64,000 nucleotides of DNA. Source: Thermothelomyces thermophilus ATCC 42464 (Eukaryota > Ascomycota > Sordariomycetes > Sordariales > Chaetomiaceae). Below, in pieces: positions 6,996-52,029 of this stretch (its first letter is position 1; every line of letters starts with the position of its first letter). A model generated the notes under the pieces. The model made no database searches. It was not told the origin of the DNA and saw only the letters and a list, made by a program, of their open reading frames with translations. Location of the stretch: positions 3,286,001 to 3,350,000 of the forward strand of contig NC_016474.1 in the NCBI RefSeq assembly GCF_000226095.1. The letters run 5' to 3'. The position numbers and the translations under genes are program-made.

Positions 6996-8210
6996 TGCGT
7001 CCGTACGTATGTGCGAGTGTCTTCGGTATGTATCCACATCCGCCTGCGGCCAGTGTTTGGTGCTGAGACCGTGAAAGGACGGAAACTACGAGCCTAGGAC
7101 TCCGGTCGAGCTTTTAAGTTCTCGTCCGTGACTCGGAGGATCAAGCGCAGTTGTAACATGGCTCCACACGCGCCCTTTTCGGCAACATGGGGAAGCAGAC
7201 AGGCGAGCCCAATCAGGAATCTGTGGGCCGCGCCCGAAGGCGACGTGCCCGTTGCATCAGATAAGCGGTGTTGTTGCTGGAAAAGTTCGTTGCAAAAACA
7301 GTCAGCGAGAACTTAAAACGACCTCTCGTGGGTTGTTTCGAGGGTAATTTTACTCTAGCCTTGCAGACCATGGCAAGCACATCATTTGAACCTGGATTGC
7401 CAGGCAGAGCATGAGTCAAACTGTGGTCGCAACGCCTGCCGCCGCGGTGAGCCGCACTTTCTCTTCTCGTCATATTTTCATTTCTCAATGCAGTTTATTT
7501 CATTCATTTCTCCCCCTCCGCTCTGCACATACATACTTCGTTCCATTTACACCAATTCGTGCTCAAAACGGCACTCTGAACTCCACCACCGGCCGGTCCG
7601 GAATCAAATGGAGGATCCGTCAAATCTCGGACCTTTTGAGTAGGCTCACCGGCCGAAAGCCGGAGTTCCAAGATTGCTTGGCGCATCCCTCCCACTTGCG
7701 TACTTGCACTCGTTAACTACACAGTAGTTACTCCATACTTGCATATTTACTCTGCACGCACGGAGCAGAAGTGGCCCGCATCCCGGCGCTCTGGGCCTGC
7801 TGGGGGTGAGAGGGGCCGGGGGTTGGGGGAAGTGGCCTCCGGACCCATGGCCCGCCGCTAAAGGTATGCTGTGTAACTCGGCCACAGGACAGTGCGGGGG
7901 AAGCCGAGGTTGCCCCAGCACGTGTGGGCCTCTTCCGGCTTAAACCCCTGGAGAACGGCAACCGAAGGCGAGGGACGGCGTTTACTGATGGTATATATAC
8001 CATAAGTTTTTGGTTTGTAGCCCTTGACTGACTAGCGCATCATTGGATCACTTTGGCTCTCTGAGCGTCATTCAGCCTTGGTTCTGTGTTTGTGGTCATT
8101 TTTCCTCCCTTTTGTCTGTTTTCTTTCCCGGAGCCTTGAGAACAGGTTCTTTCGTTTTCAGGGCTCGCAAGTATCTGTGTGTGGACAGAACATCACACAC
8201 ACCCTCTACC

Positions 8211-8255
<45 letters not shown>

Positions 8256-8260
8256 ACAAG
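6996..8260. other. Intergenic region upstream of the isomerase gene
   Basis: A 1.26 kb gap between divergent genes. Short open frames here show no family signal. The last 50 nt before the next ATG are a compound microsatellite, annotated separately. Confidence 0.55.
8212..8259 (+). repeat. (CT)n(CA)n compound microsatellite in the 5' leader
   Basis: A CT-dinucleotide run followed by a CA run ends one base before the start codon at 8261. Its length will vary by slippage and sets the spacing just upstream of the isomerase start. The CT part resembles the pyrimidine-rich leaders common before fungal starts. Confidence 0.85.
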
Positions 8261-9268
8261 ATGACCTCACCCATCAAGCTCGAGTACCGGGGCCGCCTTG
8301 CCATCATAACCATAGACAACCCCAAGAAGCTCAATGCCCTCGACCAGACCGGCTATTATGAGCTTGCCCAGGCCCTGCGTGAGATCGCAACCCACGACGA
8401 GGTCTACATCACCCTGATCATCGGCAAGGGCCGCTACTTCTCCGCGTAAGCAACCGGTAACCAACTAGTTGTCCTCTCTCTCCTCTGACTTTTCCATGTC
8501 CCACCCTGCCCTGCCCTGCCCTGCCCTGCCATGCATGATGATGTTTGCTGACCTCGGTCCGAATTGGGGAGCTCTTGCTCTTCCCCCCCCTTCTTCTCCC
8601 CCCTTCCCTGCAGCGGAGCCGACGTATCCATCTCACGGGCCACGCCCGAGCAGGCCTCGGCCCAGACGGGGGGCTCGTCGGCGCGCCGGCACTGGCTGCA
8701 GACCTTTGTCGCCTTCAACCTCAACGTCGCCCGGGCCTTCTACACGCACCCCAAGATCCTCGTGGTCGGCCTGAACGGGCCCGTGGTCGGCCTGTCGGCC
8801 GCCCTGGTCGCCTGCGCCGACTTCATCTACGCCGCCCCGCACGCCTTCCTGCTCACCCCCTTCAGCTCCCTCGGCCTGGTCGCCGAGGGCGCCGCCTCGC
8901 GCGCCCTGGTCCAGCGCCTCGGCATCGGCCGCGCGAACGAGGCCCTCATCATGAGCAAGCGCATCACCTGCGAGGAGCTGCTCGCAGCCGGCTTCGTAAA
9001 CAAGGTGTTTGAGCAGTGCGGCCAGGGCGAGGGGGAGGACGAGAAGTTCAAAGCCCTGGTGCTCAAGGAGATCGACGAGAGGCTCGGCGACCACCTAGTC
9101 GGCGACAGTCTGATCGGCATCAAGAAGCTGATCCGGAAGCCCGAGAGGGACGTGCTGGACGCCCAGAACGTCGCCGAGGTCTTTGACGGCTTGGACAGGT
9201 TTGTGAGCGGCGTGCCCCAGGAAATGTTTAGGCAGATCGCGACGGGAGCCAAGAAGCACAAACTTTGA
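8261..9268 (+). CDS. Peroxisomal delta3,delta2-enoyl-CoA isomerase / enoyl-CoA hydratase family
   Basis: Two exons (8261-8445, 8614-9268) encode 279 residues. The donor is GTAAGC. The acceptor CAG at 8611-8613 joins FSA-GADVS, the usual oxyanion-hole motif of crotonase-fold proteins. The second oxyanion segment is KILVVGLNGPVVGLSAAL. Glu at about residue 153 in SLGLVAEGAAS aligns with the catalytic Glu of yeast Eci1, favouring isomerase over hydratase. The isomerase shifts cis-3 or trans-3 double bonds to trans-2 so that unsaturated fatty acids can enter beta-oxidation. The C-terminus is KHKL: HKL is close to the HRL PTS1 of yeast Eci1, so peroxisomal import is likely. The intron holds a short CCCTG tandem near 8503-8529. 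The gene converges on the Cog1 gene, with 167 nt between the two stops. Confidence 0.88.
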
Positions 9269-9435
9269 GGCTGGAAGGGAAATGCACTTTCTCATGTCGT
9301 GTAAAATTTTTCTTTTTTCTTTTCTTTTTTTTTTTTTTCCCTTTTTGTTCAGCAGCATGACCAGCTCCCGCGAATGAATGGTTTGGTGAGCTGAACTGAG
9401 GAGAGAGTGTGAGGTGTGAGGGACGGGTATATATA

Positions 9436-12039
9436 TTATGTCAATAAGCCAAACAGCAAGCCAGTCTTCTTGAAGTAGTCCTGTGATGCCTTGACCAGTC
9501 TCTCGTTGACCGGACTCTCCAGGCCTAACCTCTGCTGAACGGCTTCTTCGAGCTCCTTCATCGTCTCTCCGGAGCCGAGGAACAGCCCGAGGTAGTAGAT
9601 GTCCATGAGCCACTGCAGGAGAAGATCTCTGTCGGCCGACCCAGCCTCGGGTTTCCCATCTGTCTTGTCCTCCTCGTCTTTCGCCGCCGCGGCCGCCGCC
9701 GCCTCGTCCTCCGTCCCCGTCTCCTCGTTCTTCGCCTCCTTCTTCTCCGGCGCATCCAGCGCACCAAGCGCTTGCCGCCAGGCGGCGGACAAGTGCTTGC
9801 TGAGGTGGTGCTTCAGCACGCCGACGGCGGCGGGGCTCCACAGGTCGCCGCCGGCGCCGCCCATGGCCACCGCCAGGTTCCTCAGGAACCTGAAGGCGCC
9901 CGGAGACGGAGAGCCGGGAAGCGCCGGCTCGCCCTCCCAGAGGCTCCTCCCCACCACCGTCTTCCGCGCCAGCGCCACGCCGGCGAACTCGTCCACCGGC
10001 GACGCGATGACCGTCTCGGCGACGGCCTCGTGGAGAGACGGCACCGCGGACAGGCCGAAGCCGCGGACGGCCTCCAGGTCGGGCAGCCTCGCCCGGATGT
10101 CCCGGAGCAGGCGGATAAAGTACATGGCCACGGCGCCGCTGTCCGGGCCGTCCCGGCGCGCGTCCCACAGCGCGGCGAGCTGGTCGTCGAGCCGTCGGAA
10201 CGCCTCGACCAGCAGGCGGTTCAGGTGCTCGGCGAGGGCGAGCGGGTCGTCCCTGGAGAGCAGCCTCTGGCGCTCCTCGATGGTCTCCTCGTCCTCGATC
10301 TCGTCGACGTCGTTGTCCCAGCGCTGCCGCTTGAGCTGGTCGACCACCTGGCCGACGTCGTCGACCACGTGGAACCAGCTCCTGTAGCTCGTGATGGCCT
10401 TGGACACGGCGTCGTTCCTGCCGTGCAGGCGCGCGACGACGTCGTGCGTGAACTGGGCCGCGCCGTTGGACAGGCTGGTGTCGAGCGAGCCGACGTCCCA
10501 GAGGCTCGGGTGCCGGTCCGCGACGCCGTCGCGCCAGGCGTCGAGGGCGGCCGACACCTCGGACCCGACGAGGCGCAGCTTGGCCACCTTGGTCTCGAGG
10601 ACGCGCAGCAGGTGCCTGTTGAGCGCCCCGCGGAGCCGGCCGAGCATCTCGGAGGGGTCGAAGCCGCGGGCCTTGCCGCCCTCGGCGATCCACAGCCGCA
10701 GGAGGCTGGTGCGCAGCTCGACGATGGCCTTGAACTCGCTCATGCCCTCGAGCGTCCTCTCGAGCCCCTGCAGCAGGACCTCGCTCCCCTTCCTGGCCCA
10801 GCCGGCGAGCATCTCCCGGGCCTGCTTCCCGTCCAGGTCGTCGTGGCGGATGAAGGGGGTGTAGAACTGGATCTCGTCGCCGCACCACCGCTTGTAGATG
10901 TCCAGCCTGAGGACCTCCATCTCGCGCAGCGACGCGTTCTCCAGCAGCCGGTCCGCCTTGAGCGCGACCATGGCCTCGGTGAGCCGGTGCGGGACCAGCG
11001 CCTGCACGTCGAGCAGCGTCTTGGCGTACAACCCGAGCGCCCGGAGCACGTCCTTGGGGTTCTTGGGGTTGTTGGCGGCGGCCCCGGCCCCCACCCCCCG
11101 GTCCTCCGCCGCGTCGAGCTGCAGGGCCATGGCGATCGCCTGCGCCCTCACCCCCAGAAAGTGCGCCAGCACGTCCCGGGCACCGGAGCTCGTGGCCAGG
11201 CTGTAGGCCGCCAGCGCCTGGAGCACGGCCCCCTGCTTCATCGCCCGGTCGCTCCCCGTCCGCAGCACGGCGTCGATGCCCCTCATCAGGCGGCCCCGGT
11301 ACACGTTCTCCAGGCTCTTGCGCGCCGCCTCCACTTTGCTGCCGCCCCCGGCTCCCGCAGCAGTCCCGTCCAAGCTCTTGACCAGCAACCTGCCCAAGAC
11401 GTACAGCCTCGCAGCCAAGACCAGCGCCTCCCCCCTTCCCCCAGCACTCGTCCTCCCCGCTCCGCTTTTTTGATCCTCCCCTCGCCTTGAGGATGACAAA
11501 GAAGAAGAAGAAGAAGATGATGATGATGATGAGCCAGATGCGCCAGCAAGGGTCTCCCTCAGACCCAGGAGGACCTTGCCCAGCCACACTTCCCTCGGCG
11601 ACAACGACGACAACGACGACGACGACGACAGAGCAGAAGCCGGAGGGGGGTCAGAGGAGAAAGAACGCAGGCGGTGCGCCTTGCCGGCGACGACCCCCCT
11701 GCCGCAGCGGGCGCCCATGGCGCCGAGGGCGGGCAGCAGGAGGTCCGCGGCGTCGGCGCGCATGGCGACGATGGCGTCGGCGGTGCCGAGGAGCTCGCGG
11801 TAGGAGGCGCCGACGCGGGTGCGGGCGCGGGCGCCCAGGTCGTCGGCCTGCGCGTGCAGTGCCTTGTGGATCGCGCGGATCTGCGGTAGCGTGTACGGCG
11901 CGTGCGGGAGCGGCAGGGCGGCGAGCCGGTGGTTGTCGGACGGGTCGGCTGCTGCTGGCGGCGGTGGCGGCGAAGAGGAAAAGAGGGCGGCGGAGGAGGG
12001 AATGGTGGTTATGTCAAGGTCTGGAGGCAGCGTCGCCAT
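9436..12039 (-). CDS. cog1: Conserved oligomeric Golgi complex subunit 1 (Cog1)
   Basis: Single exon of 867 residues. Cog1 belongs to lobe A of the COG tether, which captures retrograde vesicles at the Golgi and keeps glycosylation enzymes in place. The N-terminal part shows the Vps51/Cog1 pattern: PYTLPQIRAIHKALHAQADDL followed by VGASYRELLGTADAIVAMR, a coiled-coil segment typical of COG subunits. A long helical body follows, with pieces such as WCGDEIQFYTPFIRHDDLDG and the C-terminal SPVNERLVKASQDYFKKTGLL. Low-complexity inserts include a Ser run at about residues 170-190 and an acidic Ala-rich stretch near residue 780. The start at 12037-12039 is the first ATG of the frame. The downstream neighbour converges from the other strand. 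I am confident of the family from the N-terminal block. The remainder diverges strongly, as is normal for Cog1. Confidence 0.85.
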   Translation of the reverse strand: MATLPPDLDITTIPSSAALFSSSPPPPPAAADPSDNHRLAALPLPHAPYTLPQIRAIHKALHAQADDLGARARTRVGASYRELLGTADAIVAMRADAADLLLPALGAMGARCGRGVVAGKAHRLRSFSSDPPPASALSSSSSLSSLSPREVWLGKVLLGLRETLAGASGSSSSSSSSSSSLSSSRRGEDQKSGAGRTSAGGRGEALVLAARLYVLGRLLVKSLDGTAAGAGGGSKVEAARKSLENVYRGRLMRGIDAVLRTGSDRAMKQGAVLQALAAYSLATSSGARDVLAHFLGVRAQAIAMALQLDAAEDRGVGAGAAANNPKNPKDVLRALGLYAKTLLDVQALVPHRLTEAMVALKADRLLENASLREMEVLRLDIYKRWCGDEIQFYTPFIRHDDLDGKQAREMLAGWARKGSEVLLQGLERTLEGMSEFKAIVELRTSLLRLWIAEGGKARGFDPSEMLGRLRGALNRHLLRVLETKVAKLRLVGSEVSAALDAWRDGVADRHPSLWDVGSLDTSLSNGAAQFTHDVVARLHGRNDAVSKAITSYRSWFHVVDDVGQVVDQLKRQRWDNDVDEIEDEETIEERQRLLSRDDPLALAEHLNRLLVEAFRRLDDQLAALWDARRDGPDSGAVAMYFIRLLRDIRARLPDLEAVRGFGLSAVPSLHEAVAETVIASPVDEFAGVALARKTVVGRSLWEGEPALPGSPSPGAFRFLRNLAVAMGGAGGDLWSPAAVGVLKHHLSKHLSAAWRQALGALDAPEKKEAKNEETGTEDEAAAAAAAKDEEDKTDGKPEAGSADRDLLLQWLMDIYYLGLFLGSGETMKELEEAVQQRLGLESPVNERLVKASQDYFKKTGLLFGLLT

Positions 12040-50106: not shown

Positions 50107-52029
50107 TCAGATTCGGATATCTCCGAGCGGCTTGACCACTTCCTCGTGTAGAACCATAGAGAGCCGGGCGGCCACGGCATCGTTAGTCTCGTCGTCGCCC
50201 TCAGACAAACCCAATTCCTTCCCGCCCGTTATGCACTTCCGGGTGGCGGTCTCGTAGACGGCCCCCATAGAAGAACCCAACTCGGCGATCTGGTCCTCGG
50301 CCAGCAGTCTCTCGCGAACTTTGAGGGTGACGGATGGCCGACCCCTCGCGGCATTCAGATCGATGCCGAGGACTCGTTCGACGGTGGCCCAATGTGCTAT
50401 CTCGACCAGAAGCACGCCCAGGCTATAAATGTCGAAACTCTTCTTGAAGCGCTCGCGGTCCTCTGGGTTGGTGGACTGCGCCAGCGGATGCCTGTAGAGG
50501 TTGTACTCGGTTTCTCCCGGGTTCGGGATCTCTGTCATCTCCTCTGCCCGGGCGGGCCTAGAAAAGTCGAAGCCAGAGAGGTACGGCTTCGAGTAGTCAA
50601 CCTGGCCGTCGGTGGTACGGAAAAAGATGATATTCTCGCTCCGTAGACCCTTGTGTAACCAGTTGACCGCGTGCAGGTACAGGAGACAGTTGCTGATGGC
50701 GTGCGCGAGCTTGACTCGGTCCGTGACACGCGGCTTGCGAGAAGTCTGGAGCAGGTCGCGGAGCGAGATGGGCGGGAGGGAGGCGTGGAGGCCCTCGTCA
50801 AGGGGTCTCTGAAAGACAAGGCCGAGGCGCATATTGAGGACGTCCTGCTCTTCGTCCTCGACCCCGCCAGCGCTCGCCTTGTCGAAGAAGCCAAGACAGT
50901 GAGGCGTCCTAAAGGCTTCGGGCTTTGGGGAGTGGTTCAGCAGGGCTGCCAGTTTGCGGACCCTCTCGCATATGACGGTCTTGGGCGGCGAGAGGTCGCC
51001 GCGCCGCTGGTGATCGTAGTCCTTCCACTCGACCCAGACCTTCTTGCTCTCGCCGTTAGGGAGACGGAGGGTAGCTTCACACCTCGGAAGGTCCGACTCG
51101 AGCGCAGCAGGGTCTATGTCGACCATGGAGCGGTCAAGCAAGAGATGCTTCGGCTGGTCCGGGCTTCCCAGCTCCAGGCACATGGCGGTAGCCTCGTCCC
51201 AGGGGTTCTTCTTGCTGGACTCGATCGACTCGTTGAACGCCTTGAACTTGGCGAGCTGAGACAGCAACTGGAGGGCGTCGGCGTTGGCACGCTTCTGTGC
51301 GATCGACATCTGCGTTGCCGGCAGAGGAGAGGCGGCCTCGAGCTTGACGTTGAGGGCCATTACGAGGCGAGAGAGGTCAGTGATCTTGTGGTGCAACTGC
51401 AGCACGCCACGGTTTGTGTCCTGGACGGTGTGGTGAATCTCGACCTGCATCCTGGCGTCCAGGATGTTGGTCATGCTATCGTTTAGCGTGGAGAACCTCG
51501 CGAGGAGAAGCTCGAACGCAGCCTTGTCGAACGAGACCCAGCGCAGTCGCTGGGCGGCTTCCTGCGAGGTCGCCCTGAGGCTCTGCATGGCCTTCTTGAT
51601 GAAGTCCCTCCGGCGTTGGGGCAGGGGGAAGTTGGCGCCTGCGGCGTCCTTGTCGGGATTCAACAAGACATCCTCCTGGTCAGGAACCGGCTGGAGGCGC
51701 TTGTTGCGGGCCTGATGCTCCCTGAACTCCCTGAACAGACATTCTACCTGGACCAGCAGGTCGAGAACGGTCTGGCGGTGGAGGACAAAGGTGTTGGACT
51801 CGAGGATTCTCTGTCTATTCTCGGCGTCCAAGTCGAGCAGCCCCGACGTTTCACTCCAGGCAAACAGGCGCTGCTGCTCCATGCGCAAGCGGAGGTTCAG
51901 ATACTTGCAGTCTTCGGGGAAATTGGCCGCCGTGACGAGTAGTTGGATGCCCTGTACGCAGCTCGTGTACACTTGCAGCCCGATCGACGCAACGCCGATG
52001 GCGAGGCCAGCGATCGATACCGGGTCCAT
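50107..52029 (-). CDS. HeLo-domain protein with C-terminal pseudokinase
   Basis: Single exon of 640 residues. The N-terminal part, MDPVSIAGLAIGVASIGLQV, then YTSCVQGIQLLV and FPEDCKYLNLRLRMEQQRLF, is the HeLo domain (prion-inhibition and propagation, as in HET-S), about residues 1-230, a helical bundle that in known members inserts into membranes and kills the cell. The C-terminal half (about 330-640) has a kinase fold without catalysis: the HRD motif reads HKG (459-461), the Asp of DFG is replaced (SGFDF, 485-489), yet NI after the loop (466-467) and the subdomain IX block SFDIYSLGVLLVEI (531-544) are kept. A Lys in VEWK (about 336) could be the beta-3 lysine. This order, a death-type bundle followed by a pseudokinase, parallels metazoan MLKL. 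The frame is intact, so the gene looks functional. It could also be annotated as HeLo plus DUF7580. Confidence 0.84.
   Translation of the reverse strand: MDPVSIAGLAIGVASIGLQVYTSCVQGIQLLVTAANFPEDCKYLNLRLRMEQQRLFAWSETSGLLDLDAENRQRILESNTFVLHRQTVLDLLVQVECLFREFREHQARNKRLQPVPDQEDVLLNPDKDAAGANFPLPQRRRDFIKKAMQSLRATSQEAAQRLRWVSFDKAAFELLLARFSTLNDSMTNILDARMQVEIHHTVQDTNRGVLQLHHKITDLSRLVMALNVKLEAASPLPATQMSIAQKRANADALQLLSQLAKFKAFNESIESSKKNPWDEATAMCLELGSPDQPKHLLLDRSMVDIDPAALESDLPRCEATLRLPNGESKKVWVEWKDYDHQRRGDLSPPKTVICERVRKLAALLNHSPKPEAFRTPHCLGFFDKASAGGVEDEEQDVLNMRLGLVFQRPLDEGLHASLPPISLRDLLQTSRKPRVTDRVKLAHAISNCLLYLHAVNWLHKGLRSENIIFFRTTDGQVDYSKPYLSGFDFSRPARAEEMTEIPNPGETEYNLYRHPLAQSTNPEDRERFKKSFDIYSLGVLLVEIAHWATVERVLGIDLNAARGRPSVTLKVRERLLAEDQIAELGSSMGAVYETATRKCITGGKELGLSEGDDETNDAVAARLSMVLHEEVVKPLGDIRI

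Follow-up and report, generated by a model that had tools for sequence, protein, structure and literature searches.

A HeLo domain fused to a kinase-like domain with a degenerate active site in Thermothelomyces thermophilus, a candidate pseudokinase-controlled cell-death protein

A gene on contig NC_016474.1 of Thermothelomyces thermophilus ATCC 42464 raises the question of whether fungi join a HeLo domain to a pseudokinase in the order of parts known from MLKL, and whether such a protein might be a cell-death switch. The gene was analyzed within a 64,000-nucleotide stretch of this contig (the window). It consists of a single intron-free frame on the minus strand that opens with ATG and encodes 640 amino acids plus a stop. 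There is no internal stop codon, and the HeLo and kinase-like halves do lie in one intact frame, as had been proposed from the sequence-only reading. When the bases of the window were shuffled 50 times (three frames, one strand), an open run of 661 codons never arose, the longest shuffled run being 327, and the length of the frame is therefore not due to chance. The analytic probability of such an open length is approximately 1e-10 per start. The GC content at the third codon positions of the gene is 80%, compared with 59% across the window. An open frame of 271 amino acids lies antisense to the gene (window positions 50671-51486, plus strand) and may be a by-product of the high GC content at third positions. 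The features of the gene, all on the minus strand, are as follows.

50107..52029, minus strand: whole coding frame, 640 amino acids plus stop; open frame without intron
51964..52020, minus strand: N-terminal hydrophobic stretch, residues 4-22, from hydropathy; putative insertion role by analogy with HET-S
51364..52008, minus strand: HeLo domain, residues 8-222, matching PF14479 profile positions 1-205 of 205
51148..51363, minus strand: linker, residues 223-294, a possible brace-like region by position; helical only in a low-confidence model
50110..51147, minus strand: kinase-like half, residues 295-640; protein-kinase fold in a moderate-confidence model
50125..50784, minus strand: DUF7580 (PF24476) match, residues 416-635, over the Pfam cut-off
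51022..51033, minus strand: VEWK, residues 333-336, possible VAIK counterpart by eye in a four-row alignment
50647..50655, minus strand: HKG, residues 459-461, standing where HRD is expected, from profile and sequence alignments
50632..50634, minus strand: catalytic-loop asparagine N466, kept, as read from the sequences
50566..50574, minus strand: GFD, residues 486-488, probable DFG counterpart from the IRE1 and MLKL alignments and the model; LIMK and TYK2 give another register

The first half of the protein is readily recognized. Residues 8-222 match the entire PF14479 (HeLo) profile in Pfam with an E-value of 6e-48, and a search of solved structures with the whole protein returns HET-s/S ('small s protein', 2wvo) as the best match (E 8e-6), in agreement with the HET-S/HeLo-type bundle originally proposed for the N-terminus. 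The most hydrophobic 19-residue segment of the 640-residue protein spans residues 4-22. A role of the N-terminal helix has been reported for HET-S (PMC12881547), and by analogy we infer that this segment is a candidate membrane-inserting helix. At the level of sequence, these comparisons establish membership in the HeLo family and the order of the parts.

The kinase-like half is more divergent. DUF7580 is matched over its cut-off with an E-value of 6.6e-12, and the PK_Tyr_Ser-Thr and Pkinase profiles also match this half, both below their own cut-offs. As a single query against PDB it finds kinases weakly, the best being LIMK1 (E 0.0049), and MLKL is absent from the best 60 of 77 matches. The corresponding half of a second protein from the same genome (locus C4:1.99M), searched alone with phmmer, returns no kinase at E<=1 and four other rows. 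We built an AlphaFold model of residues 295-640 on four family sequences, those of the window protein and of three further members from its own genome. The model has a pLDDT of 61 and a pTM of 0.67, with 114 of its 346 residues below 50. Foldseek returned 1715 matches to it at E<=0.001, the best 50 of which are all protein kinases (Syk, Eph, LIMK2, RAF, JAK2 and others) with TM-scores of at most 0.59 by target and 0.47 by query; MLKL is not among these 50. With moderate confidence, the model shows a protein-kinase-type fold for residues 295-640, and the outcome by which the sequence-only reading would have been refuted, a predicted structure lacking a kinase fold in residues 330-640, did not arise. 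A model of all 640 residues from the single sequence has a mean pLDDT of 36, too low to show a contact between the HeLo domain and the pseudokinase.

The motifs expected of an active kinase are degenerate. The HRD position is consistently HKG (459-461) in every alignment of the window protein that we examined, and the corresponding triplets in the three other members are HKG, HRN and HGN, so the catalytic aspartate is absent from all four. As read from these sequences, we regard the HRD aspartate as firmly established to be lost. The kinase-like half is unlikely to transfer phosphate since the catalytic base is lost. N466, the asparagine of the catalytic loop, is retained. The VAIK-like column, aligned by eye in four rows, holds K336 in the window protein and K, R and A in the other three members. 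A glycine loop is not visible by eye in the kinase-half sequences.

The position of DFG depends on the register chosen. When the family profile is aligned to yeast IRE1 and to MLKL, GFD (486-488) corresponds to DFG within the pattern P-x-L-x-G-F-acid-x-S-R. The triplets in this register are GFD in the window protein and GFE, GFQ and SFD in the other members, and the DFG aspartate is missing from all four. The last beta strand of the model comprises residues 483-484, within a block whose pLDDT averages 81, and stops immediately ahead of GFD. In contrast, alignments with LIMK and TYK2 place DFG approximately 8-10 residues earlier, near VDYS, the LIMK columns being of low confidence; under this register the sequence suggests that an aspartate, D478, might be kept at DFG. 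We consider the IRE1/MLKL register more likely, and with it the DFG aspartate of the window protein is likely lost. The earlier claim that both catalytic aspartates are gone thus stands for HRD, and for DFG it holds as far as this register does. Three positions of alpha-F (D533, Y535 and S536) are invariant across the four own-genome members, and the loss of the aspartates alongside this invariance fits selection for shape rather than for catalysis.

The gene has relatives in its own genome (38,744,216 bases in seven contigs). The HeLo profile matches at six places, all over the cut-off, and a kinase-like half is present at four of these loci: the window gene, C4:1.99M, C1:8.59M and C4:0.83M. 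The HeLo protein on C7 is without a kinase-like half, and at C1:3.23M the HeLo match is partial and a kinase-like part was not seen. All four kinase halves are related to one another, with identities of 28-37% (54/195 to 114/306) and local scores of 100 to 363 over the six pairs, whereas 100 shuffles of each pair peaked at 48 to 66. The DUF7580 profile itself finds two places in the genome at E<=0.001 (three candidates scored); the window protein is over the cut-off, whereas two of the three other members fall below it (17.6 and 18.9 bits versus 27).

How close is this family to MLKL? In both animal and plant MLKL an N-terminal bundle of the HeLo or four-helix (4HB) type is followed by a kinase-like domain, and for the kinship between HeLo and the MLKL four-helix bundle we rely on the literature (PMC12881547). 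The parallel in the order of parts that had been drawn for this gene is borne out by the HeLo profile in the first half and the modelled kinase fold in the second. Comparable arrangements occur in plants, where the same kind of N-terminal bundle precedes a pseudokinase in the AtMLKLs and an intact kinase in wheat Pm13 (PMC10951266). The HRD motif is degenerate in both cases, HKG here and HGK or HRN in MLKL orthologs (PMC6013482, PMC12463104). At DFG, MLKL orthologs carry GFE (PMC6013482), compared, in the IRE1/MLKL register, with GFD in the window protein and GFE in one other member.

Three profile searches against PDB bear on this likeness. A profile of the kinase-like halves of all four members (about 330 positions) gives LIMK1 first (4e-6) and mouse MLKL (4btf) at row 31 (E 2.5e-4), the fifth distinct protein behind LIMK1, LIMK2, RAF1 and B-RAF. 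A shorter four-member profile (147 positions) gives IRE1 first (5.7e-6) and MLKL at row 14, the sixth distinct protein, with IRE1, LIMK, INSR and RAF1 among those above it. A three-member profile (143 positions) gives LIMK1 first (3e-6) and MLKL at row 5 (E 1e-4), the third distinct protein below LIMK1 and TYK2. This last profile spans the whole catalytic stretch of MLKL and places the GF-acid motif of the family on the GFE of mouse MLKL. MLKL is absent from the best 60 of 62 solved-structure matches when the whole 640-residue protein is the query. With ranks of fifth, sixth and third in the profile searches, never first, and no entry among the best 50 Foldseek matches, MLKL is not the closest relative in sequence or fold. 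A derivation of the fungal pseudokinase from MLKL is not shown, since MLKL ranks high in the profile lists without heading any of them. The likeness of the dead site to that of MLKL, as aligned, appears specific but may be convergence.

The surroundings of the gene bear on how such a protein might be controlled. Of ten neighboring frames scanned, four are without a match and the rest are ordinary: a carboxylesterase, a Zn2Cys6 regulator, a SET protein, a YAP/Alf4/glomulin family protein (two frames) and a glycosyltransferase. The window holds no match to NACHT, NPHP3_N or NB-ARC. Scans of the whole genome, whose counts are lower bounds, extend this to 500 kb on the contig for NACHT, NPHP3_N, NB-ARC and HET, and the contig as a whole is without a NACHT or NB-ARC match in them. 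In the same lower-bound scans a distance of approximately 534 kb separates the gene from the nearest HET match, and on this contig NPHP3_N is matched no closer than 2 Mb. The lack of a nearby NLR-type or HET match speaks against a neighboring pair of the HET-S/NWD2 kind. A crude search, which leaves some kinds of amyloid motif uncovered, found no GxQ/NxG pattern in the 640-residue protein. Both HET-S/HET-s and the window protein have a HeLo domain. However, HET-S carries a C-terminal amyloid prion domain and has a neighboring NLR gene (PMC12881547), whereas the window protein carries a pseudokinase with no NLR-type match nearby. Neither the crude pattern test nor the scans for an adjoining NLR gave support for an amyloid-controlled effector of the HET-S type. 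With no GxQ/NxG pattern and no NLR- or HET-type match within 500 kb on the contig, it is plausible that the fused domain exerts the control, and the self-contained, pseudokinase-gated switch suggested by the sequence-only reading is compatible with these results.

We propose that the HeLo half is a killer and that the pseudokinase is the switch restraining it, a reading to which we give even chances, with the killing, the gating and the trigger all modelled on HET-S and MLKL. The HeLo half would likely be a membrane-permeabilizing cell-death module, and the kinase-like half would likely restrain it, as a switch that works through binding or conformation. A partner, phosphorylation or a ligand might then release the HeLo half in a nonself or stress response. 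There is precedent for killing by HeLo/4HB domains and for gating by a pseudokinase in HET-S and MLKL (PMC12881547, PMC6013482). In Podospora, incompatibility induces two of the three HeLo 'Pkc-like' proteins (PMC3689799), which favors a killer switch, and the 639-amino-acid Podospora protein, the closest in size, falls to 0.42x (PMC3689799), which counts against it. Also on the opposing side are the four-sequence model with a third of its residues below a pLDDT of 50, the LIMK/TYK2 register for DFG, and the weak single-sequence matches to kinases.

Other roles for the pseudokinase have to be weighed against this switch. It could be an integrated decoy or sensor that mimics a host kinase targeted by an invader protein, with the HeLo domain as output and ligand capture, rather than an upstream kinase, as the releasing event. 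The divergence of the four kinase halves would suit a decoy, and kinase domains integrated in Sordariales NLRs have been discussed under integrated decoys in the available text of one study (PMC12258605). However, one would expect a decoy to look like the kinase it mimics, and no ordinary kinase of the same genome was matched. At E<=1, tblastn found nine places (seven candidates scored), namely the protein itself, seven places of the HeLo family or its kinase-like halves, and a weak 61-residue match with an E-value of 0.51. Conversely, the window protein is not among the at least 141 Pkinase places in the genome (123 of 224 candidates scored). We regard a decoy as unlikely.

It is also improbable, to a similar degree, that the protein is a non-lethal response protein acting downstream, in which the HeLo domain would tether it to membranes and the pseudokinase would serve as scaffold. 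HeLo proteins can be transcriptional targets downstream of incompatibility as well as triggers (Bidard et al., PMC3689799), and no killing test for the HeLo-pseudokinase class was found in the literature examined, both of which leave room for such a role; the full-length HeLo match and the hydrophobic N-terminus are what a killing HeLo domain requires. Some kinases that lack canonical residues are active. An atypical kinase that uses other residues, anchored for signalling by its HeLo domain, could draw on K336 and N466, which may be kept, and on the aspartate near 478, which could occupy DFG in the LIMK/TYK2 register. With the HRD aspartate missing from all four members and no glycine loop visible by eye, this is very improbable.

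The pseudokinase-restrained HeLo protein was initially put forward as the best candidate in the window for an undescribed system, which it is not. Bidard et al. tabulated nine Podospora HeLo proteins in 2013, HET-S included (PMC3689799), and among them are three 'Pkc-like' proteins of Podospora anserina (Pa_4_8870, Pa_6_8690 and Pa_7-7510). In vegetative incompatibility the expression of these changes 6.55x (652 amino acids), 4.31x (630 amino acids) and 0.42x (639 amino acids). They combine a HeLo domain with a kinase-like domain in 630-652 residues compared with 640 here, a likeness drawn from description and length in the part of that paper available. The comparison with MLKL is also in print, since a 2025 review likens fungal HELL-kinase and pseudokinase proteins to it (PMC12881547). 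Moreover, the genome holds four such loci. The layout is real, and the window protein belongs to this fungal HeLo/DUF7580 ('HeLo, Pkc-like') kind. In the literature examined, mostly outside subscription journals, we found no functional test of any fungal HeLo-pseudokinase protein, and no paper naming DUF7580 was found in the literature searched. Among bacterial and archaeal contigs, one family query gave 20 pattern stretches, none of which were confirmed as relatives. Two family queries gave 2 and 44 pattern stretches in viral contigs, again with none confirmed, and tblastn found none in plasmids. The sets searched were bacterial, archaeal, viral and plasmid, and they have no bearing on the spread of the family in fungi.

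What appears to be new is that, across the fungal family, the dead DFG site takes a form like that of MLKL, a testable point that we did not meet in the literature examined. The GFD/GFE/GFQ/SFD series marks a defined position at which comparisons can be made. The pseudokinase gate of MLKL has already been studied in detail (PMC6013482), and a fungal family that has the same layout, whose genetics are simple and in which incompatibility makes death visible, could be used to ask whether such gating is ancestral or convergent. It is possible, though doubtful, that fungi keep a family of pseudokinase-gated HeLo killers whose dead DFG has turned to the GF-acid form of MLKL. In that case the pairing of a HeLo/4HB bundle with a pseudokinase of the GFE type would represent a death switch, either ancient or selected repeatedly, in fungi and animals.

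Several observations were made at the related loci. The C4:0.83M member (L009:1410-5273, minus strand) is 1287 amino acids long and consists of a partial HeLo match, the pseudokinase and then about 600 further residues; these contain GDSGAW, which by eye resembles a trypsin-type active site, with no Pfam match over cut-off in the 596 residues scanned. In the C1:8.59M member an in-frame TAG (L006, about position 1840) lies at a GTGAG-like site and is either part of an intron or a stop. The HeLo protein on C7 is near a frame that resembles a dynamin-like GTPase by eye (L012:4360-5517 and 7909-9879, minus strand). Approximately 1.6 kb from the long HeLo-pseudokinase frame at C4:1.99M, a frame on the plus strand (L010:7061-8626) carries, by eye, the patatin-type motifs GGGIRG and GTSVG.
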